Shown here: positions 8,815 to 64,000 of the stretch, piece by piece
How positions within the stretch are numbered: the first letter of the stretch is position 1
How the letters are laid out: each line of letters opens with the position of its first letter
From: Antitrichia curtipendula
Taxonomy: Eukaryota > Streptophyta > Bryopsida > Hypnales > Leucodontaceae
Assembly (NCBI GenBank): GCA_951230915.1
Contig: OX579639.1
Location: forward strand, 22,444,001-22,508,000
Length of the DNA stretch: 64,000 nucleotides
Direction: 5' to 3'
Translations under genes and position numbers: made by a program
Notes under the pieces: generated by a model
The model's input: only the letters and a program-made list of their open reading frames with translations
The model's database searches: none
Told to the model about the DNA's origin: nothing

Positions 8815-8830
8815 TCGTGAGATCTCACGA
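8815..8830. repeat. 16-bp perfect copy of the recurring palindrome
   Basis: TCGTGAGATCTCACGA, perfectly self-complementary, lies 31 bp past the 3' end of the DUF7869 pseudogene. It is a clean version of the ATCGTGAG/TCCCACGAT motif found in arrays at 12.8-13.1 and 27.8-28.4 kb. Confidence 0.8.
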
Positions 8831-8860
8831 TGATCGAGAAGGCCTCGATATAGTACTCTA

Positions 8861-11800
8861 TCAAGGATCCACCTCGTTGGACCTGTTAAGATTTGCTAGA
8901 GCTGCCTCCCTACTAATCTTAGGAATCTTCCGTGACTTTGGATCCACTATCTTGGACCAATTAGAATACACTACACAGCTAGCGTCCACCCACGTGGGGG
9001 CAGTGTTCTCAACAACCCATTTACCGTACCAACAATTCCAATATCGCAATTCCAATGTGCTTTCGGAGTTATCTGGTTGCCAATATTGGATCATGAACTT
9101 ACCGTTATTAACATCTCCTTCCACTCTGCATACGGTGGACAATGCTCTTCCTTGCCACACAGCACAAATGGCGGGATCCTCAGGTCTCAAAAGTACCCAT
9201 GAGCCCGGTCGTATATCAAGCCACGGATTGAAGCATTCCTTAGGTGCTTCATTAGCGGGACCACAGTAAGGTTCAAGGATCTCTTCTTCCGGAACCACAT
9301 CCAAGGGATTGACTCTGGACCCATGGCGATGAACTTCATCATGCATGACCCTCTAATCATGCTGAGGCCAAAAGCCTTCCACCAATTCCGGGGGACAATC
9401 GGGTAGAGGTTCCTTCAGCACATCCACCACATGCTTCCAATAATCCACATATGGACCAAATGCTGATGCAAAACCCTCACATTTTGACATTCCGTTTTCC
9501 CAGTACTGAATGTATTTCTCAAGCCCTACCATAATGAAACCTTTGTTCAGTGTAGCTTTCTGCGCCGTAGCTCGAGCTTTCTCTTGATTCCCAGCCAAAA
9601 TGGGAACCTCACTACCCCACAATGGCTTAAATGGAACGGGTTTCGGACACCTAGAAGGGAGCATCAGATGACCATTTCTGTCAATCTTCCAAAGTTGTTG
9701 AGAAGGTTTATGAGATGGCAACCACTGTGAATCAACTGCAGACTTCTTATATTTCATGACAGGAACCCCATCAGTATCCACGTAGAACTTGAAAAGATGC
9801 ATCTCGCCCAATCCAATCAATCTAGCCCCGCCACTACTTTGATAACCTTTCACAAAAGACTTGAAGTCCGCAACCTCTTGTATAAATTCCGGCATGAATG
9901 ACAGTTCCTGGGATTGCATGAAGGCTTTCATAAGGTCCGCAACAACAAAAGTATTCTTACTTTTCAAGGCCTTAGAGAGATGGCTGAAATATGCATCGAT
10001 GTCTTCATGAGTGTGTCCAACTAGAAGGAAACCAACCTGAATTTCCTTAAACACACCTCGTGCAGTGAGCAATGACAAGAATGCCATAAGATACTGGTTC
10101 TTGTTATCTTTTGCAGAGTTGTCTAGCTGAAGGTACAACTTCTCAGGAAGGGGTCCGGACTCAAGACGAGCTGTTGGTTCATTCAAGTTCAAGCTTTCTA
10201 TACACCTAGATTTCCCTCGAAGTAGTGCCTCAAATATAGGATTTGCTGGTGGATAAGGAAAAAGATCACCTGTATCTCGAATCGGTGGACCCTCCAGTCG
10301 ACGAAATAATTTGGCCAAGGAAGAAATTGTAAAGTTCAAGTCCGCTGGCCAGAACGCTGGGGCGTAATGTGCATAAGCACCGTCGCCATGACCATGAGCT
10401 ACCATTCCAGTGACACTCAGGGGAAGCTGCCCCAAACCTGCCGTGGCCTTTGTTGTGACACGCATTCTTGGTAGGGCTGTCTTGGATGTATCCATCTTGT
10501 CATGAATTATACAAAGAATGTCCCGAGGATTTCACTTAGACTCCTCACACCACGACGCATATAATCTACGGCACGAACCCTGGTGATTCAGATGTTCACT
10601 TCGTTGCTTCATAAACTCAACGAACTGGGGGCTCCCCTTGGGAGACTTCAGAAGAAACTGCTGAAGCTGATCGCAAAGAGTGCACTTCGCAAATGAACTA
10701 CCAACATGCTTAATGTAGACATTGTTGAAATGCTCCTTCTTGATTCTACTAACAGTTGATTGGCTCACAGGTGGAAGTCCGTAGTCCGCATTTAACTGCA
10801 AAACCAACACTATGGGTGATGAGGACGGGTCAATCAGGCAGAAGAAGGAATTTATGAATCGCAGTTACACAATAAACAACGTGGGAACCCACGATGAATT
10901 ACCACACCGTGGAACCTCTTCATGAATTACTGCACGGTGGAGGAATGAAAGGTAGTACCTCATTTGCATCAGCTTGGACACGTTTCTAATTATTCCCAGC
11001 AGGAAGATATTTCAAAGTGTCAACTCGACCATTACCCATGCCACGCATTTGATGGGGCATTTGGTCGGCATTCTCATCGATGATGGCCTTCATTGTTCCG
11101 GTCACTTGCACAGTCTGAATCCTTGGACGCTTAACTCCCGTATTTCCATGCGTCTCCGAAACCACGCCGATGATATATTTATCGATATAACTGTGGAATG
11201 TCGATTTTGGAATACCGTGAATTTTGTACCAAGCACATGCACACACTTCTGCTCCTTCTAGTGTGATGAATTTTTGCTTCCGGTCCCCGGCCACACTGTG
11301 TAGTTGACCTCCGACAGCAATCCCATATTCCCGACGATCTTCGAAGGACTTCAAATAAAATTTCTGCCTAACCAACAAAGTCTGTTCCTGTTTGAAAAGT
11401 TGGCAACAACGATTGCCGCAGCACCTCTCCGAGCTGACCTTCCGAATCTCATCCTCTTGAGTTTTCCGATCGTACATTGATTCCTTCAATTCTAGAGAAG
11501 GCTTACGGACTACAAAACGATAGGGCGTTTTCTCTCTTCCACCTAGATATGCTCGAGGATCTTCATGGGCGGGACTGGCGGCAAAATGGTCTGCTGTCTC
11601 TTTCAACGACCAACCATTAGGAAACCAGCAGGCGCTAATTGGCCACCAAACATGCGTCATAATAGTGTCCTTGTTCCCAACAAAAACATCCAAAACGTCA
11701 CGCCGACAAAGCCATCACCAAGGGTTCCATCTTGAAAAAAATCATCTGATTTGTAGCAATTTATACGACCTGCCGACAGAACCAATCCAAGTGAATCCTG

Positions 11801-12300
11801 AAGATGCACCTCCAGCCCAAACCAGACTTCAAGAAGGATAAAAGGCCTTGGATCCATAGTGGGAATATCAGATACTTTCACTACGTCGACGGATCTCCAC
11901 AGCACTGTCCGATCCATAACATCCTTCAATATCAAGAAACCCCTATGGCAGGGATTGACAGGTAGGTTTTGAGCTTCAGGATTCACAAAATGAGGTCGAA
12001 CTAAAACAAAAACCCACGGCACCAAAGGAACGACCACACCTAGCCATTGACCCTGTGGACGAACCTCTACAGCATATCCTTCACCAACTTCACCATATCC
12101 AGGAATAGAGAGTTTGACAAAATCACCGTTGCTGAGAGGAACAGACCCGCCATCGGACTCCTGTGATACAATGCCCATACAAGTTCCACCGCTGAACGGG
12201 ATGATTGCATCTGCCACTGAATTATCACATACTAAATCCATTGTACCGAATAGCTGTATGCCACTACTATACTGTGGGAGTGGAGGATGATTGGTTAACC
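8861..12300 (-). pseudogene. DUF7869-type (RNase H-like, transposase-related) gene, decayed
   Basis: Family seen mainly in mobile-element-like eukaryotic genes; role inferred, not proven. Segments 5' to 3': 12298-11657 (unrecognised N-terminal part), 11693-10980 (Cys-rich CCGNRCCQLF region, then a VCACAWYKIHGI motif), an intron at about 10960-10799 (GTACTACC...TTTTGCAG), then 10798-8861. The last part has a CTLCDQLQQFL region, the first acidic motif LQLDNSAKDNKN (near 10,115), and VGHTHEDIDAYFS (near 10,000), the family signature. A C-terminal SH3/BAH-like domain lies in 9346-8861. Breaks: TAG at 10986-10988, TGA at 10532-10534, TAG at 9353-9355, and a frame change near 11,690. Reading on through each stop preserves family-like sequence. 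Normal end is TGA at 8861. Confidence 0.7.
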
Positions 12301-12359
12301 TGTGAAAAATATCCACAAAAACATAAGTAAGAAAAGAAGCAATCTGGAACCCCAAGCAA

Positions 12360-12845
12360 TGACCATGGACCTACATAAGGATCCACAGCACAAAGAGTAA
12401 AAAAGAACCTACTTCATCCAGTTAGAGGATACAATATATTGCTAATAATAGAAGTGATTCACAGGGAAAGGAAATGGACCAAAACCTACACAAATCCATG
12501 AGTTCACACAAACACTCATGAGGAAAATGGGGTTGCCACCCCAGGTGAGGCAAACAACTGTATCGTGAGAACTCATGATGTTTGCTATCTAGGATAATTA
12601 GGAGATCTGTGAATACAGGGTCATAACAACTAGGTCAATCATAACTAGGATGATTATTGTTGTGAAATGATCTAATCTCGTGCTGTCCAGTAAACCAGAA
12701 AATATATCAAGGAAACACAGTTTTACGGAAGGATCAAACGCAAACTCTTGCATTTCCCGTCAACTGGCCACTTCCCATCGTGAGATCCCATGATACAGGA
12801 ACCCCATAATCTCAGGATATAATATATGAGAGTTCTTATGATACA
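12360..12845. other. Non-coding flank with scattered palindrome copies
   Basis: No gene seen. Imperfect copies of the GTGAG-TCCCA palindrome lie near 12,568 and 12,778. This is upstream of the DUF7869 pseudogene and leads into the 77-bp array. Confidence 0.45.
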
Positions 12846-13110
12846 CCACCGTGAGGTCCCAGGATACACACATCGTGAGATCCCACGGTACTCATATATG
12901 TTGTGAGTTCCCCACACGAAGCACATCGTGAGCTCCTACGATACACACATCGTGAGATCCCATGGTACTCATATATGTTGTGAGTTCCCCACACGAAGCA
13001 CATCGTGAGTTCCCACGATACATACATCATGAGATCCCACGGTACTCATATATGTTGTGAGTTCCCCACACGAAACACATCGTGAGTTCCCACGATACAT
13101 ACGTAGTGAG
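12846..13110. repeat. 77-bp tandem array, about 3.4 units, three palindromes per unit
   Basis: Units begin at about 12,846, 12,922, 12,999 and 13,076 (spacing 76-77). Each holds three variants of the GTGAG-N-TCCCAC near-palindrome separated by ACACAC and TACTCATATATG spacers. The last unit is partial. It lies upstream of the minus-strand DUF7869 pseudogene, in the position a promoter or subterminal array would take. Confidence 0.85.
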
Positions 13111-14890
13111 AGAGTTTAAAACACACATTTCGTGAAATCCCAGTATGTCTCCACCGTGGTATCCCGGATACTATTATAATGAAATCCATTAAGTACTTCC
13201 TGTAGTACGTTGACTTTGTATCGTAATTAGACTTTGTACATGTATGCTTCTGGAATACTGTATCGTAGTTCTCCTCGCGAATTAATCTCCACCGTATTGG
13301 AATGGTGACCTTACGAATTCCTTGCAGGGCCATTCTTTCTCGCAAATTAGATTCGGCTGCCTGTCAATGACATGAGATCTATGACCTTCTTTGTTGAAAT
13401 ATACAACCCCTGCGACTGGGATACCAAAGCATTCTGTAATCATCTACGATTGCTAATTCCGATAACTGTTTCTACTTCAATTGATGGATCGAATGAACCC
13501 CTCCACTAAGTACACAAGAAGGATTCAAGTATCATTTGGCCCATTCTTCAAATCGACCTCACAACATGGGTCTAAAGCAGGCCCCTTCTCTCTAATATTA
13601 GTTCACTCAAAATTTTGAAGGTACTTGCCGAGAAAATGAAACCCCCGGCCACTGAAGATACGTGGAACTCTAAACGGAAAAGCAGTTGGAGGTGAAGATT
13701 TCAACCCGTTCTTCTGGGTCTGCTCATGGATCCCATACCTCTGCAAATGAAATGCACTGTTGCCGACCAAGTTCTCCACGCCAGAGTTGCCAACAGTACA
13801 CCAAACAAACCACGGCGCACACGAAAAGCAAGACAGCAAGAACTCCGACGCCTCCAATGCTCCATGACTGCACATGCACAAAAGAGAATGCGCTTCTTTG
13901 TTTGTAGGTATGACAAGGTCTGGGCGTGGTTCGGGACATCAGTTTCCCGCCAGAATTTTCGGAGAGACAGGTAGTATTCCTTCTCAATGATTCACTGAAT
14001 TCTTGGAATTTGTGCCTCACTGACTACAAGGAAGGGATACGTGCGGTTCTTCAGTGCCTAGGTTGATTGCATTCTAGTGATTCTGCTGAGCAGATTGAAG
14101 GCGTGCGTGTGGCTGTTTAATTCGAATCCTTACTATATTCCATTGTTTAGTATCTTGACTGAAATATGGGACCGTTGAATGAGACAGTCTCCAAGGCTTC
14201 TTCAAATAGTTAATGCTGGTATGAGCGTAGCGAATCAACCATAATGGTCTAAGTTACCCAACACTCCAAATACTCTGAATTGCAATGTCACTGTAGCAGC
14301 GTACATCTGTGAATTTCATGAGGTGGGGAATTGTAGGCAGTGCGTGACCGCGTCCATGGGGGGAAAATTTAAATTCAAAACATGGACAAAATCATCGGGA
14401 AGAAAAATAACCGATCATTTATTACCATAAACCAATACCAGATTTCCCACTTTGGAATCTCTGAACGCATACCATTATTGCAGTGACAGTCAGTAGTATC
14501 ACCAACCCCCAACGGACTCACAAACTGACAATCGCCGTTTGGAAATTTGTTTCTCCGGTGTTCTGAAACAAATGAATTTCAATTTTCTTGTTTTGAATTT
14601 CTTCATTTCATTTTATTTTTTTAAACAAATGGAAAGGAATTTCATTGCAACTTAATGCGATACATTTGATATTTTCTAAATTCTCTCTTTGCTAAGATTT
14701 TGATACTAAAGCCTTCAATTGACAAAAACATTGTATTCTAGTTCCTCCTACCTTGGAATACTAAAATCATAAAAGTTTACAAGTAGGCTTACTAAAAATT
14801 ACCTACAGGTGTGAAACCCTCAAATAATTAAAATTTACAACTGATAGCACATTTAAATTACGATAGCATGCTAAATAATCATTTCATAAC
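13111..14890. other. Non-coding, one doubtful small ORF
   Basis: No supported gene. A minus-strand frame at 14,020-13,724 (98 codons) contains one strongly hydrophobic stretch (VGVLAVLLFVCAVVCLVYC) that would span a membrane. The same DNA is open in four other frames, so this is probably chance or a relic. From 14,340 on, the sequence is AT-rich. Confidence 0.35.
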
Positions 14891-15049
14891 ACCATAAACT
14901 GATTTGTACGGCTGAAGATGACGAGGTCGGGTTCAGGGTCCCGCACAATGTCATGTTTTCTCGTGAGTTTCTGTATTTGTTAGTTTCAGCCATTCTTTTT
15001 CTAAAATGACAGTGAATCCTAAGTTTTTAGGGTTCATGGCATCACAGGA

Positions 15050-15600
15050 CTAGGGCATACGGTTCAATTCAAGGTGCAATACTAGATTGTAGGGTTGTGA
15101 AGATCCTAGGGTTCAGGGTCCATAATATTAGGTTTTAGGGTCATCATTTTAAGGTACAGGGTACACGATATCAGGGTAAAAGGTATTAGGACTCAAGATT
15201 GACGGTGGCAGGGCTAAGAATCCATGGTCTTAGGGTTTAGGGTCCACGGTTAAAGGGTTTAAAGTGCACGGTCTTAGGGTCTACGGTTCAGGGTTTAGGA
15301 TTTCAGGGTTTAGGGTCCACGATTTCAGGGTTTAAGGATCCATGCTTTCAAGATTTAGGATCCATGGTCTTAGAGTTTAAGGTCCACGGTTTCAGGGCCC
15401 ATGTTCCACGGTCTTAGGGATCAGGGTGCACGGTTTTAGGTTTTACAATCCACGGACTTAGGGTTTAGGGTCCACAGTTTTAGGATTTAAGGTCCACGGA
15501 CTTAGGGTTCGGGGGGCACGATTTCAAGGTTTATGATCCACGTTCTTAGGGTTTAGGGTCGCAATTTCAAAATTTAGGATTTGCGGTTTCAGGGTTCGGT
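15050..15600. repeat. Degenerate TTTAGGG-derived tandem repeat
   Basis: Dozens of variants of TTTAGGGTCCACGGTTTCAG with about 20-22-bp spacing, mixing the plant telomere heptamer (AGGGTTT) with a TCCACGGT block. It is interstitial and diverged, so it is a telomere-like satellite rather than a chromosome end. No coding potential. Confidence 0.75.
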
Positions 15601-16543
15601 TTGGATTCTACATTTTATGCATTAGTCCTTGTAATTTTAGAGTTTGAAATTCACCCTTAACCCCCAAAGGACTTGATCCATTCTAAAATGGTCAAACTTC
15701 ATGCCTGAACTAAATTTAGCCTTTTAAATTGTGTTAAAAAAAATCTTATATTGTTAATACTTGAAAATCTGAATTATATATCACTAGTAGAAGTTTCAAT
15801 TTGTTTTATGAAAAATTGCAATTTTTATCATTTTTATTGTAAAAATTGAATATAAATAAGTAAAAATAGCAAAAAAAATCCAAAAGACTTGAAATTCTTA
15901 CAAGAGGTACAACTAGAAATGGAGATTACTGTCAAAAAATTTCAGTTGGTTATTTTATTATTAACATCCAAAACAACCACAACATAGACCTTGAAGTCAA
16001 ATTTGACTATTAAACCAAATTTATCTTTTTTTTTATTAATAGATGTGTAAAATTTTGATATTTTGTGCTAGTGTCAAAATTTATTTTCTATTTAAATTTA
16101 TTTTTTTCTTAAATTCAATGGACAAATCAAATTATTGTGATTTTTTAAAACTAAAGGTGGAAATCAAATTATATCAATTAGAATATATATTAGAGTAAAT
16201 AATCCGTAACTTTAATCATAAATTATGAGTAGAATGAGAAACATGATTTTATAATTTAAGTTTAAAATGAAGTCAAAAAAAAGAAAATATGAATGAAAAA
16301 CACACCATACTGTGTTATTTGGATTCTAAAACATGAAGCTTTCAATTGCAATAACTCTTTCAAATTTAGGCATTTTTGAAAATTTTAAAAGGGAATAAAA
16401 ACAACAACTTGTCCAGCTTCATTTTCTTAGTTTAAATCAAAATAATTCCAAATCAAAATAATTTTAAAAGTTACAATCATAGTTGACCAAGGCGCATCCA
16501 CTTTTTGGACGAGTGGACTTTTAAGGTCTGGTTAATATGTTAA
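15601..16543. other. Very AT-rich spacer, no gene seen
   Basis: Long A/T runs and stop codons in all frames. Nothing recognisable. Confidence 0.6.
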
Positions 16544-17604
16544 GAGCATCGCCACCCGTTCACGGCCAAGCTCCCAGCCTGGCAGTTGGGCGGGGTTGGC
16601 GAAGAAAAGGTGGGCCACCGCAAGCCCGGGGAAAGACAAAAGGTGACCCGTCACAGCACAAATGCCTCTGCAAACAGCAGTTCCATGTCCCCGGAAGTTG
16701 TTGACTTTGTATGCTTACTGTCTTCCCAAGGAGATGTCAGACTTTAAATTTTGTCCAATTGCCAAGGTAATAAAAGGGAGTAACAAGGTTTCCTTGGTTG
16801 CTGTGAATTGTTTGTTTTTTGTTTGTTTTTTGAAACAGGGATTTCATTGCAAAAGAAAGTCAGGGAACAACATCCCCCCGCCACCCATATATTGTTTTTG
16901 ATATCAATGGAAATTGTCCATATATTTCAAGGAAAAAAAAAAGGTAAGATAGAATATAATGAAGTACAAAGTTATTAGCAATGCTGGTCTCTTTGAAATG
17001 GAATTTATTTCACTTGCTTCCAAAAAAGAAAAAGAAAAATGGCAAGGAAGACTTGTAATTATAAAGAACTATAATTGACATTTCCTTGGAATAAATAAAA
17101 AATGACATTAGCTTGAAATGACTTTTTCATTTTTTTATAAAAGATTTCAGTTTAAGATTTTGTATTAAACCAAGATAATGTAAGTAGTAAAAATGTGCTC
17201 TAGGTTTGCTTGTGGTAGACCTTGAGGTAGACCTCAAGCACATATCAAGAACACCTCAAGCATTTTTTGTTATTTTAAAAAAAAATTGAGAATAGTTTCT
17301 TAATTTTCTAAATTTTTTACCATTCCGGGGCAATAAAAATAGTGGAAATGTATTCTAAGTGTGCTTGAGGTCTACTTTATGTATACTTAAAGCAATTTAT
17401 GATTTTTATTTATTTATTTAATAAAAGATTTCAGTTCAAGATTTTGTTCTAAATCAAGGTAATGTAAGTAGACAGTGGAAATGTACTCGAGGTGTGCTTG
17501 AGGTCTACCTCAAGCACACCTCAAGAACAATTCTACAATTGTTTAATTTCAAAAAAAAAAATATATATATATCAAACAAATCATATTAAAAGTAAAACTT
17601 AAAA

Positions 17605-18607
17605 GTGCTCATAGTGTGCTTCAGGTGTGCTTGAGGTAGACCTCAAGCACACCTCAAGCACAAATCTACAATTGTTTAATTTCAAAAAAATAAAAATAAA
17701 TATATCAAACAAATCATATTAAAAGTAAAAATTAAAAGTGCTCATAGTGTGCTTCAGGTGTGCTTGAGGTAGACCTCAAGCACACCTCAAGCACAATTCT
17801 ACAATTGTTTAATTTCAAAAAAATATATATATATATATCAAAGAAATCATATTAAAAGTAAAAACTAAAAGTGCTCATAGTGTGCTTGAGGTGTGCTTGA
17901 GTTCTACCTCAAGCACACCTCAAGCACAAATCTACAATTGTTTAATTTCAAAAAAATAAAAATAAATATATCAAACAAATCATATTAAAAGTAAAAATTA
18001 AAAGTGCTCATAGTGTGCTTCAGGTGTGCTTGAGGTAGACCTCAAGCACACCTCAAGCACAATTCTACAATTGTTTAATTTCAAAAAAATATATATATAT
18101 ATATCAAAGAAATCATATTAAAAGTAAAAACTAAAAGTGCTCATAGTGTGCTTGAGGTGTGCTTGAGTTCTACCTCAAGCACACCTCAAGCACAATTCTA
18201 CAATTGTTTAATTTCAAAAAAATAAAAAAAAATATATCAAACAAATCATATTAAAAGTAAAAATTAAAAGTGCTCATAGTATGCTTCAGGTGTGCTTGAG
18301 GTAGACCTCAAGCACACCTCAAGCACAATTCTACAATTGTTTAATTTCAAAAAAATAAAAAAAAATATATCAAACAAATCATATTAAAAGTAAAACTTAA
18401 AAGTGCTCATAGTGTGCTCGAGGTGTGCTTGGGGTCTACCTCAAGCACACCTCAAGCACAATTCTACAATTGTTTAATTTCAAAAAAATAAAAATAAATA
18501 TATCAAAGAAATCATATTAAAAGTAAAACTTAAAAGTGCTCATAGTGTGCTTCAGGTGTGCTTGACGGAGACCTCAAGCACACCTCAAGCACACTATGAG
18601 CACTTTA
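17605..18607. repeat. 133-bp tandem repeat, 8 units, each with an inverted core
   Basis: GTGCTCATAGTGTGCTT recurs at 17,605, 17,738, 17,871, 18,004, 18,137, 18,270, 18,403 and 18,536, always 133 bp apart. Each unit has a core reading GTGCTTGAGG...CCTCAAGCAC, able to fold on itself, plus an AT-rich spacer. Two core variants (TTCAGG...GGTAGACC and TTGAGG...GTTCTACC) alternate between 17,738 and 18,269, making a 266-bp higher-order unit. Older, diverged units lie at about 17,195, 17,345 and 17,480. Confidence 0.92.
18532..18607. repeat. 76-bp near-perfect hairpin closing the satellite
   Basis: AAAGTGCTCATAGTGTGCTT at the left is mirrored by AAGCACACTATGAGCACTTT at the right, with the usual CTTGA/TCAAG core between. 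The array therefore ends in a complete inverted repeat. Confidence 0.85.
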
Positions 18608-18880
18608 CATTTTCTTGAAATTAGAGAATTTTTTTGTTTAGAAATTCAATTTGCCAAATTTTGAAACTTTTTCAAATTCCTAAAATCTTTTACCTTTCAT
18701 GTAAAGTCTGCCAACTCGCAGCTAACTTGTGAGATTGACTTTGACCATGAACTTCGGCCGTGAACTTTGGCCGTGAATTAGTTGAGGGCATCCCCAGCCA
18801 AATGGAACCAGGGAGGAGCCGGGCTTGGGCCATCCCATTCCCCATGCCATTTGGGGGAATAATGGGTGGCGATGCTGTAA

Positions 18881-19530
18881 TGGTTTACGCTCAAAGATCC
18901 ATCAATTTTTGGTAGTCTGGGAGGCAATCCATGCGTAATTACCGCCCTATTCTGGTAGTTTAGGATGGAGTACTTCTGATTCAGAGGTGACTAGTAGCCA
19001 TTAATTATAGCATTGTCCCCAATGCAATTTTAGACCCTTCTAAGTGGCCACAAGTTATTTAATACCCTTGGTGGATTTTGCAAGTACCCTTTGGTCGGAA
19101 ACAAGAAGGTCTATATGATTGATCATTCAACATGGATGGAACATAATTAATTTTGTTGCTCTAAAATTCGTTGTAACTATGTTTTGAGTGATCAAGTTTT
19201 GAAAAATAATAGAAACCTCATAATAAATTCTATTTGTGCACATGAAAAATTTTCCCACTACTAAAATCTCTCTTGTAAATACATGTATTTTCTTCAATAG
19301 TTAAAAATGGGTTGCCTCCTTTAGTGTATCTTTGATGGCTTTACATCATGGTCCGTAGCTTGAAGGTTTAGGATTCTAGGTTTCAAGGATATTAACTATT
19401 GCAGTTACAAAGGGGCTCATTTTACATTTTGTAGGGTTTAGGGTTGAAGGGTTTTTATGGTTGACGTTCTTAAGGAATTCAACTTATTTTCAGCAAATAA
19501 TTATGGTAGGGTTATAGGTGAGTTCAAAAG
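18881..19530. other. AT-rich spacer, no gene seen
   Basis: Nothing recognisable beyond a few TTTAGGG-like heptamers near 19,365-19,450. Confidence 0.5.
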
Positions 19531-19532
19531 TT

Positions 19533-19676
19533 GTGAATGGAATGCTACAACTACGCAAAAAAACTTATATATATGAAGCTGTGAATGGAGTGCTACAACT
19601 ACGCAAAAAAACTTATATATATGAAGCTGTGAATGGAGTGCTACAACTACGCACAAAAACTTATATATATATATAC
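19533..19676. repeat. 48-bp tandem repeat, three units
   Basis: GTGAATGGAGTGCTACAACT recurs at 19,533, 19,581 and 19,629, exactly 48 bp apart, ending in TATATA/CATATA runs. The period is a multiple of three, which keeps frames open on both strands; I do not call a gene. Confidence 0.9.
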
Positions 19677-19719
19677 ATATATATACATATATATATAGCA
19701 GCATTATTTTGTAGCTTTT

Positions 19720-20800
19720 GTATGATTGTACAATTGATCATAAATATGAATTAATTTCTATTGTAAGTCCATATAATTTGATTGGAGGTACTTATTAAGG
19801 GTCTTTGTAAACAAAGACAAGTATGTTTATCTGAATATAATTACAATTATGATGTATATACTTATTCGTATTTTCAGTGTTTTATTTTCAAACTTGGGCA
19901 CTGAATATATATTTGTCAATTAAGCAGCCACCCTATGAAGTATTCAATCAATCATTTCTTAAAATTAGATTTGGAAATTCCTAACTTTAATATCCACCTT
20001 AGAGGTATTTGTATATCGAAGAGTTAGTATTTACTAAAAAACTGGTGAGTACTAAGATATGGCATAATTATACGAAATCCTATAATTACTAAAAAAAAAA
20101 TCATAATAATTTTGTTAACTTTTTTATAGTTGGAGGCCGCCAACATTATAGCATCAATGATTTCAAGGCTTTGATATGAGACTAATGCACTTCACGATCA
20201 ACTTATTGACAATATGTTGTTTTAGTTTATGGAAAATAGGAGTTTAAATAAGTACATATAGTAGAGGTTGACAAAAGATGTTAGTACTAACTCACTTCTT
20301 CCATTATTATGTCAAAAAAATGATATTTGGTTGAAAAGGTCTAAATGAAGTGCACCAATGATGCAAGAGAAATTGCCTCATTTATTTAGTGTTTGTAATT
20401 AATAATAATAAAGTGTTAGTAGAATTGAATGGACTATGAAGTGTAAGAATTAACCCCCAAGTTTTATCTAATAAATTACTTTGATATGAATTATAGATAT
20501 TAATATTTTTTTGAATTATATATTAATTCACTGATTAGGTGATTTTTTTGTCAAGTTTTTATATTAAAGTAACTATTCAGTCATTATTTATTTTTTCAGC
20601 TCTGAATAATTCAATATAAATTACGCAAGAAATTCACCTAGATAAGAAATTAATTATTAACACAATCATTCTTTTTTCCTTCATACAAATTATTTTCTTA
20701 AAATAATTATAGAATAAAATATGTTGTCTGAATATTATTTAGAATTTTAAATTCTCTTTTTTCTCCTTTACTTTTTAGTTCTTTTGGTTATAATTTTTAT
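19720..20800. other. AT-rich spacer, no gene seen
   Basis: Strongly AT-rich, frequent stops in all frames, no repeats of note. Confidence 0.55.
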
Positions 20801-20810
20801 GGGCCCCGTT

Positions 20811-20852
20811 GGAAACGCAGACGCTCCCAACATTGGGAACGTCGGCGTTTCC
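20811..20852. repeat. Imperfect GC-rich hairpin, 18-bp arms
   Basis: GGAAACGCAGACGCTCCC and GGGAACGTCGGCGTTTCC are inverted with two mismatches around a 6-base centre. It stands out in AT-rich DNA and follows GGGCCCCGTT; it may be one end of an unrecognised foldback element. Confidence 0.6.
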
Positions 20853-20874
20853 ATCAGGGAACGCCCGGATCAGG

Positions 20875-21190
20875 GAACTTGTGGACTTACTTAGTAACCT
20901 TAAGTTCATTCTTGGTTTTTTAAATTCAAGCTGACTTGAAACTGAATCCCGATCGCAGCGAACCTGTGGACTTTCCTACTTGTTGTATGTTCGTTCTTGA
21001 TTTGCTAGATTCAAGGTGACATAAAACCGAATTTGAGTTGCATCGAACCTTGGGACTTGCTAAGTAATCGTATGCTTGTTCATGGCTTGCTGGTTTCAAG
21101 TTCACTTGCGACTGAATCCTTGTTGCAAGGAACCTTCAAACTTGCTCCGTAATCTCATGTTCATGGTTTGGAAAAAGCATCTGCTGGAGC
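20875..21190. repeat. 85-bp tandem repeat, about 3.6 diverged units
   Basis: GAACCTTGGGACTTGCT-like starts at 20,875, 20,960, 21,045 and 21,131, each unit containing TTCAAG-TGAC and TGAATCC blocks. The units are about 70-80 percent alike by eye, so the array is old. Confidence 0.75.
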
Positions 21191-25000: not shown

Positions 25001-25024
25001 TTGTTATTCACTTAAAGAACATTC

Positions 25025-25350
25025 AATTGGTTTTCTATTTTTTTTTTTCCTTAATTTTCTAATGAATCATTTTTTTACGGAGTAATTCTATCTTAATTCA
25101 CTACCCTATCAATTGATTTTTTTTTTTTTTCCTTTTCTAATGAATTATTTTTTTTATAGAATGCTATCTTAATTAACTTGAATGAATATTAACAAAATAA
25201 TGAATTGATTTCCCTTTTTTTTTCCTTTTTTTATGAATTCCTTTTTAATGGAATTCTATCTTGGTTAACTTTGTGAATTTACTTGAATATTAACAATTGA
25301 TTTCCCATTTTTTATCCTTTCAATTATGAAGTTTTTAATTTTTTTCGGAA
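25025..25350. repeat. Degenerate AT-rich tandem repeat, about 4 units of 80-100 bp
   Basis: Repeating blocks: TCAATTGATTT, T-run, CCTTTTCTAATGAATTATTTTT, then GGAATTCTATCTTAATT. Spacing is irregular because the T-runs vary. Confidence 0.6.
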
Positions 25351-25499
25351 TTGTGACGATCTTAGTTCACTAGAATAGGCAGTCTTCTTATTCAGGAGCA
25401 ATTAATCTACTTACTACAGTAATCTTTTTCACTTAGTATAGTAAAAAAGTGAAGGGCATGGTAATTACTGCCCGCAACCCAACACTTGTCATCAACAAA

Positions 25500-26590
25500 A
25501 TTTTATTAATCATCACTACGGCTTGCTTGAATGCTTTCTACTGTACATTCGCCGTCTCTCCCCAAAACGCATGATACCCCGCCTTCCTCCTCTCCTCTCG
25601 CTCCTTCCATCGTACGTGTATTTGCTGTAGTTGCTGGAGGCGCATTTTTGCAATTGTTCACAGGTGCGTGCGCGTCGTGGACGGACTAAACTCCACCGGG
25701 GAAGGAAGCGCTTGTGTCTACGATTAGGGGTCGCTTTCAGTGATTTGGTGGTGCCGGAGCCAAGCTTCAGTGCGGCTGTGTGAGTCGTGGTTGAATCGGC
25801 GGATTGTGCTTCCAAAAAGCAGCGTCGTATGTGTGATTGCCCTCCGCCGGTGATGGAAGAGCTTGCGCCTGTCAATGGAGCCAGCCAATTTTCAGTCGAT
25901 GGTGCTTGGAGCTTGGAAGCTTCAGTGTAGTAGGCAGAAGGTGAGAGCAGGTCTACGTGGGACGAGTTGTGCGCTGGAAGGAGGTCGCAGTAGTACAAGT
26001 TGTGCGCCCGGAGGAGCTAGGTCGTAATAGGCTACGGGTTTTGCGGCGGGACGAGTTCTGCTTTTCTACGACTGAGTGACTGTGCGGCCGCAGTCTGAAT
26101 TTCAGGACAGGTGCGTGCGTGACAGACTGAAACATTGCACTATCCACTGTTTTCTGGATACTTTGTGAGATGTGTTGAGGAACTATCACTGGTTTATTTG
26201 AGCCCAGCTATTGCGTTTGTCAAGTAGTTCGTGTGTGCTTAGTTCGACGTGTGTGCTCAGTTGATTTCAGTGTCTGTCAAGTAGACAATTCGTGTGTGCT
26301 TAGTTTGTGTGACTGTGCTTAGTTGAATGATTTCTATGTAGGCTTCTAGTTAGAATGATTGAGTGTTAACTTTGGAGAGTGAACCTTACCTAGACTGAGT
26401 TGTGATTTAGGGTACTATTAGTGCCAACTGGTTGTATTGAATCGTCTGACTTCTCTGAATGATACCATCGTGGGATAGTTTCCCCTGGCCAACTTCTGTT
26501 GGCAATATCGATGTAGGTTGTAGAATGATCTTGGTGAATGATTACTTTCTGAGTTTTATTTGAACTATTTGGTGACTGCCTTGTTTTTGT
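25500..26590 (+). other. Probable 5' leader region of the ParB-like gene
   Basis: GC-richer than its flanks and without a convincing protein. Around 26,215-26,335 a GTGTGCTTAGTT block is repeated about five times. A good acceptor (CTTGTTTTTGTAG, ending at 26,592) lies just before the coding start at 26,640, so an upstream untranslated exon and promoter are likely here. No TATA box can be singled out. Confidence 0.35.
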
Positions 26591-27594
26591 AGCTAAGGAA
26601 TTCTGTGGCGTGTACTTCTTTCTGCTGGAAAGGCGTACGATGGCCGGAGAGTGTTTGGGAGCGGCAGAACCTGGCATAAGCCCATGGGATGACCCGTAAG
26701 TACAAATTCCTTGTCTTTGGGATTTATACTGCATCGTTATAGTTACTGGCTTGTCATGGTTTTTAGTAGAGTACAGGAATAGCGGAACGCTCACGGTATG
26801 AGGCACCACAAATCCGCTAAACCCCAAAAGACGAGCCTCACTATCCATCACTGACTTTCCTACCATTGAGGAACTAAATATGTATGAAATTTGTTATACT
26901 TATTTTTCAGAGCTGAAATTACATGTCTTCTTTAATTCAAAGAAAATTACGGAGTTTTTGATGAAAACTGTTTTTTATGAGAATTTTTGAAGATAAAGTG
27001 AAGGAAAATCACATGAAATGAAAAATTAGTCCAAAAATTCTGAAAATTTCACCATGTGTGTACATTATTGTGAAAAACATCATGGTATAAACTCAATTTC
27101 CGTTTCATTCTATAATTAGAATGCAAAAGACATTGAAAATACTTCCAAAGTTCAAATTGCCATAAAATAATTAATTAAATATTTAATATTTAGAATTTAT
27201 TCAAAATTCCAGTTGGAATAGAAACCAAAGTACATAACATTCATTTTGTTAGATGAGCTCCAACTCAGAAAACATTGTTCTTGTGTAGAAATTTGAGATT
27301 TAGAGAAGGAGCAAGAACTCCACTAAATGCACTGAAATGGCATATTTTGTAAACCATTTTTTTTACTTCCTTCTGAATTACGTGAAAACAAACACTAAGT
27401 TAGTTAGACTGTCTAGAAACTCAATTGAATACTATTTGTAAGTCAACGTGAAAGGTGGCTAGAAAAATGAAGATAAAAAAACTATTTAGAATTTCTCTTG
27501 AGATCCCTGGACTTTTAGCCAAACGCAGAATGACGTTGGCGGTTTAGCCACACATTAAATCGTGGAGAAGGCCACGGTAATGGGTGCCAGATTC

Positions 27595-27705
27595 TATGAC
27601 TGCGGACCTGGATACCCATGACCGTGGACCCAGAACCCTATGACCGTGGAACTAAATCGTAAGTCCGTGGACCTATACCCTATAACCGCGGAATCGGATA
27701 CCTCA
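27595..27705. repeat. Short array of a 22-bp CCGTGGA unit, about 5 copies
   Basis: CTATGACCGTGGACCC-like units follow one another every 20-23 bp (near 27,595, 27,616, 27,638, 27,661, 27,681), directly before the 54-bp palindrome array and in the same intron. Confidence 0.7.
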
Positions 27706-27766
27706 CGATATTCCGGGTGAATTGGAATGCCCATGATGGTTATATTTTACGATTAGTTTGCTGGGG

Positions 27767-28380
27767 CAGTTACGTAGTGAAATCTCACGATACAACTGAT
27801 TTCCTATTAGCTTCTTGGGGCAGTTACGTAATGAGATCCCACGATACAAACAATTTTCGATCAGCTGTTTTGGGCTCTTACATCGTGAGTTCCCACGATG
27901 CAAACAATTTCCGATTTGCTTTCAAGAGCTAATACATCGTGAGTTCCCACGATACAATCGATTCCCAGTCAAAGGCTGGGGTCAATTACATCGTCATTTT
28001 CCTCGCCACTAGCGACTTCCGATTTTCTTCTTGGGTCTGCTACATCATGTGATCCCACGATACAATAAATTTCCAATGAGCTTTTAGGGGCTGTTACATC
28101 GTGAGTTCCCACGATATTGTCGACTTTTGATTGCTCCTAGGATGTATTCCATCGTGATTTCCCACGATATATATGATTTCGGTGTCGCTGTAGGCGGCTG
28201 TTATATCTTGAGATCCCAAAATACAGACGATTGTTGATCAGCAGCTAGGGGCTGTAACATCGTGAGATCACACGATAAGGACGATTCTCGGATAGCTTTT
28301 AGGGGCTGCTACATCATGAGTTCCCACGATACCACCTATTTTTGATTACCAATGGGTTATCGAGGGTTCCCATGATATTC
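27767..28380. repeat. 54-bp tandem array of palindromes, 11 units plus a partial
   Basis: The TTACATCGTGAG start recurs near 27,771, 27,825, 27,879, 27,933, 27,987, 28,041, 28,095, 28,148, 28,202, 28,256 and 28,310; every step is 54 bp except one of 53. Each unit has a near-palindrome (best form ATCGTGAGTTCCCACGAT), then ACAA-ATTTCCGATT and a GCTTTTAGGGGCT spacer. The palindrome is better conserved than the spacer in most units, suggesting constraint. It sits inside intron 1 of the ParB-like gene, ending about 70 bp before exon 2. Not a CRISPR: spacers are not unique. Confidence 0.93.
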
Positions 28381-31300
28381 ATTTTTGAGGACACGTTTCT
28401 CTGTAGCTGTTTACAGATACTAATTGGATCCTCCATTGTCCCTGTAGTGAAATGCAGATTAAGGAGGGCCCAGAGGACTTCACTCCGCGGAAGCTGGCTC
28501 CTTTTGTTGACAACTGGATTTATGATTTCAAGTATACGGGAGACCATCACCCCGGAGCTGTTTATCGCTGCCAGAAGAAACTTACGACATGGGGTCTGGA
28601 ATGGAAGAAAGGCGAGGATGGGATTGCTGTCATCATTCCAAAACTGAAGGACGGGGAAAGGGTGCACCAAACAGTTGGGCTGAACGTCCTCGACATGCAA
28701 GGACTAGATATGCAAGCCGCGCTTCTAATTGTGGATGAGAAGTTACCGAAGTCGGGTCGCAACATGACATACGGGCTAGTTCTTGATCTCAACAAGCTGG
28801 ACATGAATATGTGTAGAACATTGACAAAGATAGGATTAATGTACCAGTCGGACGAGAATGATGCGTGGACACCGCGAACATTGCATTCTCAATGGGAGTT
28901 CATTGAGGAGGCTCGCATTGACACTATCCCAGACACTCATTCTACACCCGCTGGAGATGCAATCATCATCGCCCCTTCGCCATCACCGTCGAAGAGGAGG
29001 GGAGTCAAGAGGAAGGCCATATCCGGAGCACCGGGAGATGTCGAGGAGAAGGAAGGGGCTGCTAGTGGTTCTGCTAAGAAAAAGGCGCCTCTTCAGATTC
29101 ACCAGTGCGTGAAAATGGAAGAGGCGGAAATCAACAAGTTGGATAAGAGTCAGTTGAAGGCTATGAAGGCATTATATCATAACACCTTCAATCCCATGTA
29201 CAAGTGGGGGAAAACGCCCATTCTCGACGCTAGCGGAGAAGCCATACGGGTGCACTTCGACTACTTGCACAAGAGTCCACCTGGTCGACTCGTGTACAAA
29301 GGCATTGAAGAAGCTCGGCTCCACGGAATAATGAACAAGCTTCGTGTGGATGTTGATTTTGTAATTGACAACAGATACATCACCGTCCTTCCATTGAAGC
29401 AGGGGCCATATGGTCCGGATAAGAAGTTACCTCGATGCATGCCCCAAGAAGGATATTTTCATGGAGAAAACACACTACTTCATAATCGGGGGTCAGCACA
29501 CCGTGGAGGCCTACAGGACGTTAATATCCACTGGAGAAATCGCCGAATCTGAGAAGGCCAAAGCTTCAACCTTCGAAATTATACCTATCTGGGCACAATC
29601 TAAGGACTTCGACAATGTTATGCACTTGTCACGTGCTCTCAACCAGAATATTGCTGGATCGTAGAAGGAGCAGAGATTTCTGCAGCAATTTCAGAATGCC
29701 AGAATCAAATGGAGGGATATGAGAAGCCCTCAGCCTGCGACCATGGGCAGGACCCACTCGCCAGAGTACCTAGTATGTCTTTGACCCTATATTTCATTTG
29801 TACATTTAGTTCATGTAGTATGGACCATCATTGGTTACTGGGATGGTATTACCCTGCAATGATAGATTACTGCAACCTTTCCACTGTGCTGGCATTGTGG
29901 GTTCCCACGATAGATCATTGGATGCAACCAATTTCACAACTCCCAAATTTTCGTCTTCATCTGACTCTATTTTACTCCCTGTGTAGAGATTTTACCCTAT
30001 AATGTCGACCATATTCACGAGTATGAAGGGGCAAGAAACTCAGGAGCCTAAGATTCCTCTAATCTTCCTCGAAGACGACGCGGATGTGATGTTGTGGACC
30101 GACATTGAAATGAAGTTCTTGAAGGAAGAGCTTCCGGATCATTCGGGGATAGGAGGCGGTAAAAGAGCGAGTATAAAGCGGAAGCCACTTACCCAAAGTG
30201 ACTTCAAGACGCTTTATGGACTCCATGCTGAGGACATCAGATTCCTCGCGAACTTAGTTCTTGATGGAAAGCTTTGCGTGAAGAGCACGAAGTTGAAATC
30301 AAGCATTGTCTCTCTGTCTGCTGCCGGGGCCCGAATGAGGTTTCTTAGGGTGATGAAGAATGAATTGATGAACCACTATATGAAATTCCCTTTGCCTAGC
30401 AAGAAGCCTGAGTACATCCCCTATACTCTACAAGAATGGGATGATTTCGCTAGTGAAAGGAATATTGGGCTTTCTCAGATAGAGCTTTGGGTGGACAAGG
30501 CGATTTCCAGTACAGTGGGGAAGAAGTGGTTGGACGAACGCACAAAGGGCCTGAACAAGACGTTCGATCCTGACGACTGCCCTGCTTTTGTCAAGGAGCT
30601 CTGGGAGTCTTACCTCAATACCACATCCGGGCTTGCAGTGTCCCAGGCCATGTCAAAAGTTTTTTCTGAAAATTACCAATGCAAAATCATGGACAAGACG
30701 TTGTGGAATATCAGTTCAGTTCTTATGCTTCCTGATGTAATCCAGTGGCGCGGCGAGAAGAAATCGCACATTTACTTCTGGTTCCTTTTCAATACTACAT
30801 CCACTAGAACGCGCGCAAAGATTCTTGAAGATCGCAAGCTGAGGAGGCTCTTTGATGCCCTCGAAACACACGATTTCGCTGCCAAAACTGTTGTTGCCCG
30901 GTCTCCAGCTGTTCTTCTGACGGATGCCCAGGGGTTTAACATGATTGCTTGTCACCTGGAACAACGAAGGATGGAGGCAAAGCTGAGAGTTTGGGATTAT
31001 CATGTCCTGAACTATATTGCTGGTATTGAAGACGGATTTCCTTCCTCTGTTGCCGGAGGATACAATGTCTTCGTTGTATTTTGCTTCGGCCATGACGCAT
31101 GTGACAACAGACAGGGCTCCTTCGACTTCTTCTTTCGTGGATCCAAAACGCTCCAGGCTTCATACAAGTCGGAGGACATGGGGGACGATTATTCGTACTG
31201 GAGCCGTAGTCATTTGCCGCGTCTGAAGATAAGCACGGCTCTTGGCATTTTTGGTGGGCTTATCGATGATGAGATGGTTGTGGTCAATGTGAATGGCGGC

Positions 31301-32312
31301 CCTGAGTTCACATTTTTGGGAATGGTACGTTGTTGATGTTCATCTTTTGTGTATTCTTATTGAAGTTTATTTTTATTCCTTTTTCTAGTGTTTCGTCTAA
31401 CATAGTAGCACACTAACAATTTTCTTGTCAAGACCCGAAGTGGGGAGGCGTTAAAGTTTTGGAGATCGTTAATTCTAGGGAGGCTTTGGAAGAAGCTGAA
31501 GTGCTGGCCAGACAGATCTGGGATCACTACCATCCTCACCCTAGAGTCCTTTTAGACGAGGAAGTAGGGGAGGACCCAATCGGGAACCGTGCTTTGGAGG
31601 TAGATAATGCTGTTGAAGATGTATCATCTGATTCTGAGAGGACAGACACAGATTCCAATCCATCTCTGAGTTCCCTCAGCATGAAGACCAAGTCCCAGCG
31701 TCAGCATAGAGAGGTTCTTCCTGTTCCCATTTTTCCACAGCATGAGATCCCATGATGCTGGGCTAGGGATAATGTCTTCGTGACCAGTATTCAGGAAACA
31801 ATTTGAGTACCGGTTTTTCCTTCTTATCTTATATTGAACTCGTTATTGAAGAGTCCACTCCGGTTATTTCTGTATTCTCTACTGGAAAAAGAGATTTTAT
31901 AGATTTATTCACGGGATTTTTGGCAATAATTTCAAATTATAAACAGGTTATCTCCTGAATGAATCATGTAACTTTTAATTAGTGCAGTTTATTCCGACCA
32001 TTGTTCGTGTGAGGGAAATCAATTCTGAGTACTGTTTGTGTTGTTTTGAAGCAGGAGTGTTTGCCTTTACTTGAATTGCCGCCAAAGAAATTGAAGGATC
32101 CATTCCCAGAAGCACTTACCGTTTCAAAAGTGCCAGTGGAGAAGAGCCATGAGAAGGGAGGATTGCCAATCCGCAACAGCATCTTGTCCGTTGTAGGAAA
32201 GGGTTCGAAGAAGGGAAGAGGATCGATGGAGAGATATAAGAAGACAAAGACGAAAGGGAGACCCAAGACCATTACGAATAACCCATTGGAGAGCCTACAT
32301 GAGCTAATATGA

Positions 32313-40980: not shown

Positions 40981-40985
40981 TGAAA

Positions 40986-55650: not shown

Positions 55651-55671
55651 TATGCAACAATGCACGGTGCC

Positions 55672-56263: not shown

Positions 56264-56471
56264 AGTTTAAGAATGCTATCGGAAAATCTGGCAGCAAGAT
56301 GTGCAAGTTCACATGGCATACGAAGTGCAAGGCAACGATTTCCTGTAAGTTCATTGAAATGAATTCGTATTAAATAAAATACGGTTACAAAAGGCATAGA
56401 TCGCACCAACAAACAATGTGTCCACACATAATGTACAATCTCCTCTTCCAAGACCACAGATTCCTCCACTG

Positions 56472-60697: not shown

Positions 60698-60699
60698 CT

Positions 60700-61985: not shown

Positions 61986-61990
61986 AGCTC

Positions 61991-63596
61991 ATGTGTACCC
62001 TGGAGCAGGCTAAGGATTTTTTCAAGGAAACTTCAGAGTCCGACACAACAATTCTTGTGAGTTCTGGGTCTGATGACTCTCCTAAAGAACCCGTTATTCG
62101 CAACCGAAGATGCCGGAAGAAATCAATAGTGTCCTCTCCCAGAGTTCAGACACCTGAAGAGGGTGTTGCTGCGAGGACATTAGTTTCATGTTCATCGGGT
62201 CCGCTATTAGAGGGCATTACAATGCCGCCCAATCCAAGCTGTCCCGAGCTTATGATTGGGGCTCCTGTATGCGAGGTTTTGCCTCCGCAGACTGGAGGCT
62301 CCCCTCGCTTGGTGGATGAGTCAGTACCAACGGACTTGGGCCTCATTGTATCGTGTGATCCCACGATAGCAGTCGTGGATTTGCCGTCACTTCCCCCGCC
62401 GACCATGACTGACGAGATTCGGCAGGATACTCTTACTGATATTTCCCCACTTAGCCCATTGCTAGTTAAGCGAAGGGTGACTTTCGGAGTTCCTGCGGTT
62501 TTAAAACCTCATGTTTGTACTGGAGTACCGGATTCTGTGAATATTGCTACTGATGTTTCGCATGAAGTCATCGGAGTTGCGGAGGTCAATTTTCCGGATT
62601 GGATGAGGGTTCTTTGTCATTTGCCTAGTGTGTGTTTACCTAGCCGGGGTAATCCGGACGATAAAAAATCAAAACATTTCGAAGCAGTTAGGCTTGCGCA
62701 CTGTTTTACTTACAATGACATTTTTGACTGGGTTCAGGGACAGGTTGTGCCGGTGGGGGAGAATGCTGAGTCTGAACTTGGAGTTCCTTCTGATGTGGAG
62801 GCCGTCGAGGGTAAGGGTTTAGGGGCCGTTGAGAGCGGCGCTAATCGTCCTTGAGGTTGCATCCTTGGGTTTCATGGTGCTCGACATCTCGCCGTTCGAA
62901 ATGAATTAGTCTAACTAGATGTTGTCCCCATCTGCAGATCGTTGGGAGCCCCGGGTGCCAACAGCTATGAAATCCAAAAAGGTACCTTGTCGACGGTATA
63001 CAGTGATCCTTGACCTGAATGAAGTTCTTATTTTCAGGTCATTTTCTGGTTATAAACGGTCTTCAAGGTTTAGACCAGGTTGTGTAGACTTCCTTGATTG
63101 GTTGCAATCGAAGGCGGACATTGCTTTCTGGAGCAGTGTTTCACCATCAAATCTGAAGTCCTTATTGGGTTCGCTTCTTGAGTCCACTTCTCTTGGTCCC
63201 GGTGACGTCAGGGCTTTTTCTCAGGATGAGTGCACAATGTCGTCTTATAGGAATCTGGATAACCCAGAGAAGCCCTTTTTCCTGAAGGATTTGTCATATT
63301 TCTCCAGCCTTATGGGATTGGACTCTATCGATAATGTTATTTTAGTCGATGACAGTCCAGAGAAGAATCTATTGAACAATTCCTACAATGCAATCCACCC
63401 GCAATCCTGGGCTGGTGATATGCGGGACTCTTTCCTCCTCAGTGGTCTTAAGCCTTGGCTTCATGGGCTTTTTGCTTCCAACGTACCTGTCGCAGATTAT
63501 GTGAAGGCGAATCCACTTCCCGGTGGTCAATATTCCATGGACCCATTGTCGTCTGTGGGTAATATGATTTTGAAGGGTGTTGCTTTTGAGACTTAG
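61991..63596 (+). CDS. Two-exon gene with FCP1/NIF-type HAD phosphatase-like domain
   Basis: Exons 61991-62810 and 62938-63596, joined GAGG|GTAAGG to CTGCAG|ATC with phase kept (Gly/Asp junction); about 492 residues, ending TAG TAA. The 5' edge is uncertain: ATG 61,991 or a GGAGCAG acceptor at 62,010. The first half is acidic and Ser/Pro-rich (low complexity). The second half is FCP1-like: VILDLNEVLIF (motif I; the nucleophile Asp is kept, the second Asp is Asn), SSRFRPGCVDFLDWL, ADIAFWSSVSP, and NVILVDDSPEKNLL (motif with DDSP). FCP1-type enzymes dephosphorylate phospho-Ser proteins such as the RNA polymerase II tail; activity here is uncertain because of the Asn. Exon 1 contains a palindrome copy (ATCGTGTGATCCCACGAT) at 62,349-62,366. 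Confidence 0.62.
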
Positions 63597-64000
63597 TAAT
63601 CCGTTAGCAGGTGTGGATATCGTGAGTTCTCATGATATTTTTTTGAAAGTGTTCATTTATTTCCGATAGCCACGAGCATTTACTTCCTCTAGTATCCCAG
63701 AACTGTTTGTAAATACTGTAAATCAACTTTATTATTGTAATTATTATGATCATGTACAGGTTACTCTCAGTAATAAAAACACTTTGTAAGCTTGTTTCCT
63801 AATTCCCTTGTCCAATTTCTGTGGAATGGCAAATGTTTAATTGAAATTGAACACATGTTTGATGCTTAATAGTCTCCTCGTCCGGGCATATTTTGGGACC
63901 TCATAATACTTATAATTATTGAATCTAGATTTTCAAAGGTGATTAGTCACTTTCTGACTTAGTAATTGCTATATCTTTCTTCAGTGACCTAAAATTACAC
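63597..64000 (+). other. 3' flank of the FCP1-like gene
   Basis: Contains a palindrome variant (ATATCGTGAGTTCTCATGATAT) near 63,616 and a candidate polyadenylation signal AATAAA at 63,772-63,777. No further gene before the window ends. Confidence 0.4.

Follow-up and report, generated by a model that had tools for sequence, protein, structure and literature searches.

We analysed a 64-kb stretch of the genome of the moss Antitrichia curtipendula (assembly GCA_951230915.1, contig OX579639.1, positions 22,444,001 to 22,508,000 of the forward strand; hereafter the window), in which a short palindrome with the consensus ATCGTGRGATCYCACGAT and a centre of AT or TT recurs. The palindrome belongs, as a cis element, to a family of giant DNA transposons with terminal inverted repeats (TIRs), and it may be a site through which these elements recognise and control themselves. 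When the whole window was searched with ATCGTGRGNTCCCACGAT, allowing up to three mismatches, 46 strand-wise matches were found, representing 25 distinct sites, against 0.11 matches expected and at most one in any of 100 shuffles. A scan of the genome (400 Mb, 303 contigs) with at most one mismatch gave 812 forward and 762 reverse matches, and the same motif read backwards gave 0 and 0.

A giant transposon split by nested insertions

Four other genomic regions (three and one on the minus strand), fetched through their exact-motif spacing, align with the window from a sharp edge at 8095-8098, a left edge common to all four at about 95-98% identity. The copies on C2 and C3 are without two nested insertions that split the window element, at about 20801-25000 and 32292-62000; in them the element resumes at 62001 and reaches its right end at 65652, 1652 bp past the window. 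The segments of this family, which we call W, sum to about 23.6 kb and lie in the window as follows, the three segments being placed by copy comparison.

8098..20800, plus strand: left segment of the giant TIR transposon
25001..32291, plus strand: middle segment
62001..64000, plus strand: right segment, up to the window edge
8098..8126, plus strand: left TIR, ATGCCATATTTAACTACTTCTGGACTTTG; the right TIR lies outside the window

All 25 palindrome sites fall inside the three segments, which make up 34% of the window, and neither the nested insertions nor the left flank contains any. At a looser score of at least 13 of 16, the left flank has one site (6277; 0.05 expected) and the nested insertions still have none. 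An earlier sequence-only reading of the window had seen no palindrome in its CACTA element or its long interspersed nuclear element, which this count bears out, and we reject the palindrome as a property of either.

The ends of W are inverted repeats with one difference within the first 19 bases and a TIR of about 28 bp. The window element has TATC on either side, a 4-bp target-site duplication (TSD), and the three W copies with both ends have TATC, CATC and AGAT (the other two copies are without a right end). Overall, of 10 copies whose two flanks were read, nine have 4-bp TSDs: three W, two of a second family, X, and four miniature inverted-repeat transposable elements (MITEs), whose TSDs are ACCA, ACTA and AAAC in three reads of a 241-bp type and CAAT in a 632-bp type. 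The tenth copy, L025, duplicates the CAAT insertion, with one base different on one side; L024 and L025 are two copies of a single MITE insertion within another repeat. The left-end 35-mer occurs at 242 and 208 genome places at up to three mismatches. With 4-bp TSDs, a TIR of about 28 bp and lengths of 21,475 bp including TIRs (X) and about 23.6 kb (W), the element fits a giant Sola-type transposon, a placement made by TSD, TIR and length. As described in the available excerpts of PMC10741241, the Sola superfamily has 4-bp TSDs, TIRs of 11-1124 bp and a length mostly of 2-9 kb, with some members above 15 kb.

Several other features were seen within the element. A different, 24-bp perfect palindrome, TTCTGGACTTTGCAAAGTCCAGAA, lies just inside the left end (8115-8138), overlapping the inner TIR. 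At 15215-15560, TTTAGGG-like units mixed with TCCACGGT resemble degenerate plant telomere repeats. The central spacer holds a 133-bp tandem array of 8.3 copies (17490-18593), which spans some 4 kb in the copy on C2 and is much shorter in other copies.

The larger insertion (32292-62000) lies within a few bases of the site of a 5-kb insertion in the copy at C1:55 Mb, and this near-identical place reflects either shared ancestry or an insertion hot spot. It contains a 617-amino-acid open frame at 34622-36475 with a NIF/FCP1-like domain (PF03031, E 5.4e-10), possibly from another giant element, and long inverted arms of 20-bp tandem units at 49833-50678 and 58755-59766, perhaps the ends of the CACTA element.

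Genes of the element

Introns of the following genes were deduced from reading frames, not from transcripts.

8861..12370, minus strand: DUF7869 gene, broken in this copy and reading towards the left end; extent from frames common with family X
28407..29661, plus strand: gene A, divergent from the DUF7869 gene; conserved with family X (41-53% at the amino acid level)
29987..31333, plus strand: gene B, fold unassigned; conserved with family X (49-52%)
61988..62851, plus strand: gene C open frame, part of the element only from 62001; 27% between families
62919..63593, plus strand: NIF/FCP1-like phosphatase gene of the element (PF03031, E 3.1e-17); 41% with family X

The DUF7869 gene matches PF25273 in Pfam with E 5.4e-44 over 9353-10531. 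Its product models as a putative DDE/D-type transposase: the predicted structure has an RNase H-like fold, and its structural neighbours are integrases and transposases. Foldseek alone returned no significant match for two DUF7869 models, and the C-terminal domain of the first (661 residues) gave mostly MazF-like barrel rows. Gene B is possibly in one transcription unit with gene A. A methyltransferase was sought in gene B and none was found in Pfam or PDB profiles; a weak winged-helix match (PF21198, E 0.006, 2 of 21 members) is a lead only.

The palindrome in the window

The palindromes stand at the following places.

8814-8831: one copy directly beyond the 3' end of the DUF7869 gene, with a perfect 16-bp palindrome at 8815-8830
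10878-10895: one copy, probably intronic, within the DUF7869 gene; two palindromes at the family X counterpart
12562-13096: cluster upstream of the DUF7869 gene, with sites at 12562 and 12777 and a 77-bp array at 12848-13096
27774-28376: cluster upstream of gene A, a 54-bp array, starting at 27774 at the looser score and otherwise at about 27828
29894-29911: one copy, probably intronic, between genes A and B; three palindromes in the matching stretch of family X
31739-31756: one copy beyond gene B
62350-62367: one copy within the gene C open frame
63619-63636: one copy just past the FCP1-like gene

In the search at up to three mismatches, all ten places named in the sequence-only reading carry the palindrome within a few bases. 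That reading had tied it to several different genes. The palindrome does lie near the DUF7869 gene, gene A and one FCP1-like gene, but all three belong to a single element that nested insertions have split, and the second NIF/FCP1 domain (34622-36475) does not belong to it, being part of the larger insertion.

Placement of the palindrome in a second family

A family X element of 21,475 bp with the TSD CCAT was found on C1 through motif places about 6.5 kb apart, and a second two-ended copy, with the TSD TTGT, on C3. X has the same terminal repeats as W, and the two families share one palindrome version. At the DNA level, X and W match over the DUF7869 gene (73%) and 215 bp near the right end (71%); a third match falls on a W insertion, and the other non-coding DNA is mostly unalignable. 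Protein comparison gives a common gene order, with the DUF7869 gene on the minus strand followed by a long spacer, genes A, B and C, the NIF/FCP1-like phosphatase gene and a small right-end frame.

At a score of at least 13 of 16, W holds 31 palindromes and X 34. The 1.2-kb zones upstream of the two divergent genes contain 20 of the 31 in W (3.2 expected) and 15 of the 34 in X (3.8 expected), counts that none of 2000 random placements equalled in either family. Coding frames hold 1 in W (10.5 expected) and 4 in X (13.4 expected), and the central spacer holds none in W (12.4 expected) or in X (8.6 expected). Corresponding probable introns and 3' flanks of W and X also hold palindromes.

The non-coding DNA of W and X has 290 11-mers in common, against 157 expected from a dinucleotide-piece shuffle. 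Those present at least twice in both families belong to the palindrome, the TIR and poly-A runs, and motif-like words make up 48 of the 290 shared words against 285 of all 13,328 W words.

Further families and short derivatives

Elsewhere in the genome, we worked from position lists that hold the first 100 places or the best 94-150 of 389-1613 candidates, so that the counts below are lower bounds or samples. A protein search gave 105 scored DUF7869 matches of this type (best of 1521 candidates), 108 for gene A (best of 389), 94 for gene B (best of 465) and 150 for the FCP1-like gene (best of 924), the window copy being included for genes A and B. A DUF7869 match is listed within 30 kb of 53 of the 108 gene A matches, and 52 of these pairs are oriented head to head.

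In further elements, whose gene A is 45-49% identical to that of W, the distance from an exact ATCGTGAGATCTCACGAT to the gene A match downstream of it is 196-198 bp in 10 plus-strand cases and 192-198 bp in 12 minus-strand cases. These fixed-distance sites account for 22 of the 24 listed, the remaining two being second copies. At four loci of such elements there is also a palindrome at 3.4-5.4 kb, measured from the low end of the DUF7869 match.

The sequence-only reading had proposed that enrichment near the genes be compared with random positions, and this comparison upheld the association. On C1-C4, 13 of 24 exact-motif clusters are within 20 kb of gene A, gene B or NIF matches (2000 random trials: mean 0.32, maximum 4), as are 30 of 42 clusters of the TCT-half version from C1 to C5:22.0 Mb (random mean 1.05, maximum 6); a cluster was counted if any member was near a gene, and the control used one point per cluster, which somewhat favours the observed side. 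The other 11 exact-motif clusters comprise six X or 632-bp MITE copies (L017, L018, L019, L024, L025 and L045), three at 9-24 kb from a DUF7869 match and two without assignment (C3:40887691 and C4:32423438). The remaining TCT-half clusters comprise four near a TIR match, one MITE (L057), two that are weakly MITE-like (L050 and L051) and five without assignment.

We sampled 20 motif loci of 618 bp, five from clusters then unassigned and 15 from the TCT-half list. One matched X, two were the 241-bp MITE and two were weakly like the 632-bp MITE. The other 15 matched nothing in the comparison library beyond a 29-bp stretch; they form groups of nine and four, which by position belong to further elements, on the gene A side and on the DUF7869 side, and two loci that adjoin a gene A match on C2. 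The 241-bp MITE has the same TIRs and one palindrome version, with 40 scored copies of 239-241 bp (best of 764 candidates).

A viral origin was also considered and is unsupported. An exact palindrome scan of viral contigs found six contigs with one match each, and none of 50 pattern-matched viral stretches encodes a DUF7869 relative.

A palindrome changed in both halves

Since X and the further elements had been found through exact motifs, we also sought the palindrome from the gene A side. Within 20 kb, the exact first palindrome accompanies 24 of the 44 gene A matches on C1-C4 and is absent from the other 20. With a looser pattern, four copies of ATCGGGAGATCTCCCGAT were found around one of these 20. 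ATCGGGAGATCTCCCGAT is the palindrome with T changed to G in the left half and A to C in the right half; it occurs at 89 places genome-wide (control, 0).

Among the gene A matches, six of the 20 that lack the first palindrome have the variant within 20 kb, and none of the 24 that carry it does (Fisher p 0.005). The variant stands 294 bp upstream of gene A twice and near the 5' side of three other gene A matches. Of 32 ATCGGGAGATCTCCCGAT clusters, nine are near gene A, gene B or NIF matches (random mean 0.50, maximum 4) and five are near a TIR match, one of these being also among those near genes. A change made alike in both halves, and tracking the family, is as expected of a dimer site whose protein has shifted its preference.

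Two arrays of the variant were seen. At C2:1715899-1716204, seven ATCGGGAGATCTCCCGAT copies follow one another in 48-bp steps, about 9-10 kb from gene A on the transposase side; at C3:14710746-14710907, three sites with a spacing like 48 bp lie about 9-10 kb from a gene A match.

What the palindrome may do

The pattern of the motif, like that of the VANC motifs of Arabidopsis VANDAL21, together with a gene layout like that of the brown-algal transposon Sola1-1 (both compared below), leads us to take the palindrome as a self-recognition and control site of a dimeric DNA-binding protein that is encoded by the element and changes with the family; we give this reading a probability of roughly 0.55. 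A dimeric protein made by the element is predicted to bind the palindrome, and through such binding the element would recognise its own copies and activate or de-repress its genes, much as in the VANC/VANDAL system. Non-autonomous copies with the TIRs and the palindrome would be marked too. The likeliest binder would be a product of the divergent gene A/B unit, whose divergence between families parallels that of the palindrome. The choice of binder is the least certain step: gene A is read as ParB-like from a short stretch, IIGGQHTVEA, and its best profile match is DUF6551 (E 0.029, 1 of 6 members).

The sequence-only reading had already suggested that a dimeric protein, encoded by one element family, could bind here. 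That the palindrome belongs to one transposon group, occupies matching non-coding places in two families, clusters near the genes above chance and has a variant changed in both halves all speaks for this suggestion; the binding itself we infer.

A number of points weigh against the self-recognition reading. The ParB domain of gene A was not confirmed by Pfam, PHROGs, NCBIfam or PDB profiles. Within 20 kb, 14 of the 44 gene A matches on C1-C4 have neither exact version, and with the looser pattern those at C1:1557241 and C1:10407695 have no palindrome at all. X and the further families were found via exact motif matches, so that the presence of the motif in them is partly selection; the upstream zones were drawn after the palindrome positions were known; and array copies are not independent, which makes the placement tests overstate the number of events. 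Among five W copies, the palindrome has 3.7% mismatches against 3.5% in its flanks and 2.5% in other non-coding DNA, and 1949 of 2000 random 18-mer sets varied no more than the palindromes did. In seven aligned 241-bp MITE copies, 4 of 18 palindrome positions vary against 25 of 223 others. Purifying selection on the palindrome among sibling copies was thus tested for and none was seen. Sibling copies decay after insertion whether or not the palindrome works, so poor conservation among them is compatible with function, and the case for a functional site rests on the place conserved between families and on the both-halves variant, which together suggest it.

The palindrome might instead be an accessory binding site of the DUF7869 transposase, serving transpososome assembly or regulation in the manner of subterminal repeats. 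Palindromes do lie near the right end of W (65201, 65407 and 65573), a palindrome version stands about 50 bp from one end in each of the seven aligned 241-bp MITE copies, and the 632-bp non-autonomous element is mostly a 28-bp motif array. Between families, moreover, DUF7869 is conserved better than any other product (80-85%), in keeping with the constancy of the palindrome between W and X. However, there is no clear enrichment in the terminal 700 bp on either side (4 of 31 palindromes in W, 1.8 expected; 3 of 34 in X, 2.2 expected) whereas the upstream zones are enriched, palindromes occur in introns and at 3' ends too, and a family-specific version better suits a binder that diverges. We regard a transposase site as unlikely, if the best placed of the rivals.

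A parS-like system can be imagined, in which a ParB-like accessory protein would load onto family-specific palindromes beside the transposase and accessory genes, mark the 20-25 kb element as self, keep it active and recruit its non-autonomous relatives, with site and protein changing together. We consider this scheme doubtful.

The palindrome could also be a functionless mini-repeat, tandemly duplicated and spread by transposition, and the sequence-only reading, which had offered a fast-spreading mini-repeat as its other explanation, was right in part, for the arrays. There are two arrays in the window, and neither sibling nor MITE copies show extra conservation of the palindrome. The same reading had described the palindrome as steadier than the spacers, which is so in the 54-bp array (mean column identity 0.87 against 0.70) but not in the 77-bp array, which does not spare it (0.91 and 0.96 against 0.98 for the spacers). 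Against a mere repeat stand the matching non-coding places in two families whose other recurring non-coding words are almost all different, the avoidance of coding DNA and the central spacer, the steadier palindrome of the 54-bp array and the variant changed alike in both halves, and we think this explanation improbable. Least probable is a host transcription factor site serving the element as a promoter element: the main clusters do precede both divergent genes, and the spacing to gene A is often fixed, but 22 of 24 and 35 of 42 clusters are near element genes or read as element copies or MITEs, with no set of host genes, introns, 3' ends and MITEs are not promoter places, and a family-specific version is unexpected for a single host factor.

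Comparison with known systems

In CACTA (En/Spm) elements, subterminal TnpA-binding repeats crowd both ends. The moss element likewise has many copies of a short motif within a transposon that also encodes accessory proteins, but its outer 700 bp are not clearly enriched. Bacterial ParB acts with parS palindromes on chromosomes and plasmids. Here too, a palindrome of 16-18 bp stands in several copies beside a gene read as ParB-like; the differences are that the moss palindrome belongs to a eukaryotic transposon, that the ParB domain is unconfirmed, and that the copies lie at promoters and in introns, not at one centromere-like site.

Giant Sola elements, a ParB-like accessory gene in them and motif-tagged transposons are already known. 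In the open-licence literature we found no paper that names DUF7869 and no report linking a multi-copy palindrome to the Sola group. The closest relative in layout is Sola1-1_Ec32, a giant Sola-1 element of 21.5 kb from the brown alga Ectocarpus, whose opposite-strand gene has ParB-like and N4/N6 DNA methyltransferase domains and whose authors raise the possibility that proteins of this kind bind their own transposon and modify it (PMC12477816, available in excerpts). The two elements are alike in length class, in a transposase with an opposite-strand accessory gene read as ParB-like, and in nested insertions. They differ in the methyltransferase domain, which was not found in the moss element proteins (Pfam and PDB profiles, gene B), in the further genes of the moss element, including the NIF/FCP1-like phosphatase, and in the palindromic motif, which the available excerpts of PMC12477816 do not mention for the Ectocarpus element. 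With its many copies, anatomical places kept in two families and a both-halves variant in others, the palindrome is a concrete candidate target for the ParB-like accessory proteins of giant Sola elements, for which those excerpts name none. DUF7869, a Pfam family without an assigned function, gains from the structural models a supported reading as a putative transposase.

VANDAL elements are Mutator-like, unlike the moss element, and VANC-type proteins strip DNA methylation and co-evolve with their motif. As far as the excerpts of PMC5735166 describe them, VANC motifs occur as tandem repeats, within VANB21 and VANC21 introns as well as upstream of VANA21, are bound by an anti-silencing protein that the element encodes, and differ in VANC6. 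In both systems a short motif lies in introns and upstream, often in tandem, with versions by family (PMC5735166 and PMC10398659, in excerpts); the moss palindrome, too, is enriched upstream and in probable introns with tandem repeats and has different versions in different families. According to the same excerpts, the VANC21 motif, YAGTATTAY, is 9 bp long and not palindromic, and its binder is known, unlike that of the moss palindrome, which is only predicted. If our reading is true, the moss element would join VANDAL/VANC as the second case of a transposon that labels itself with many copies of a short motif.

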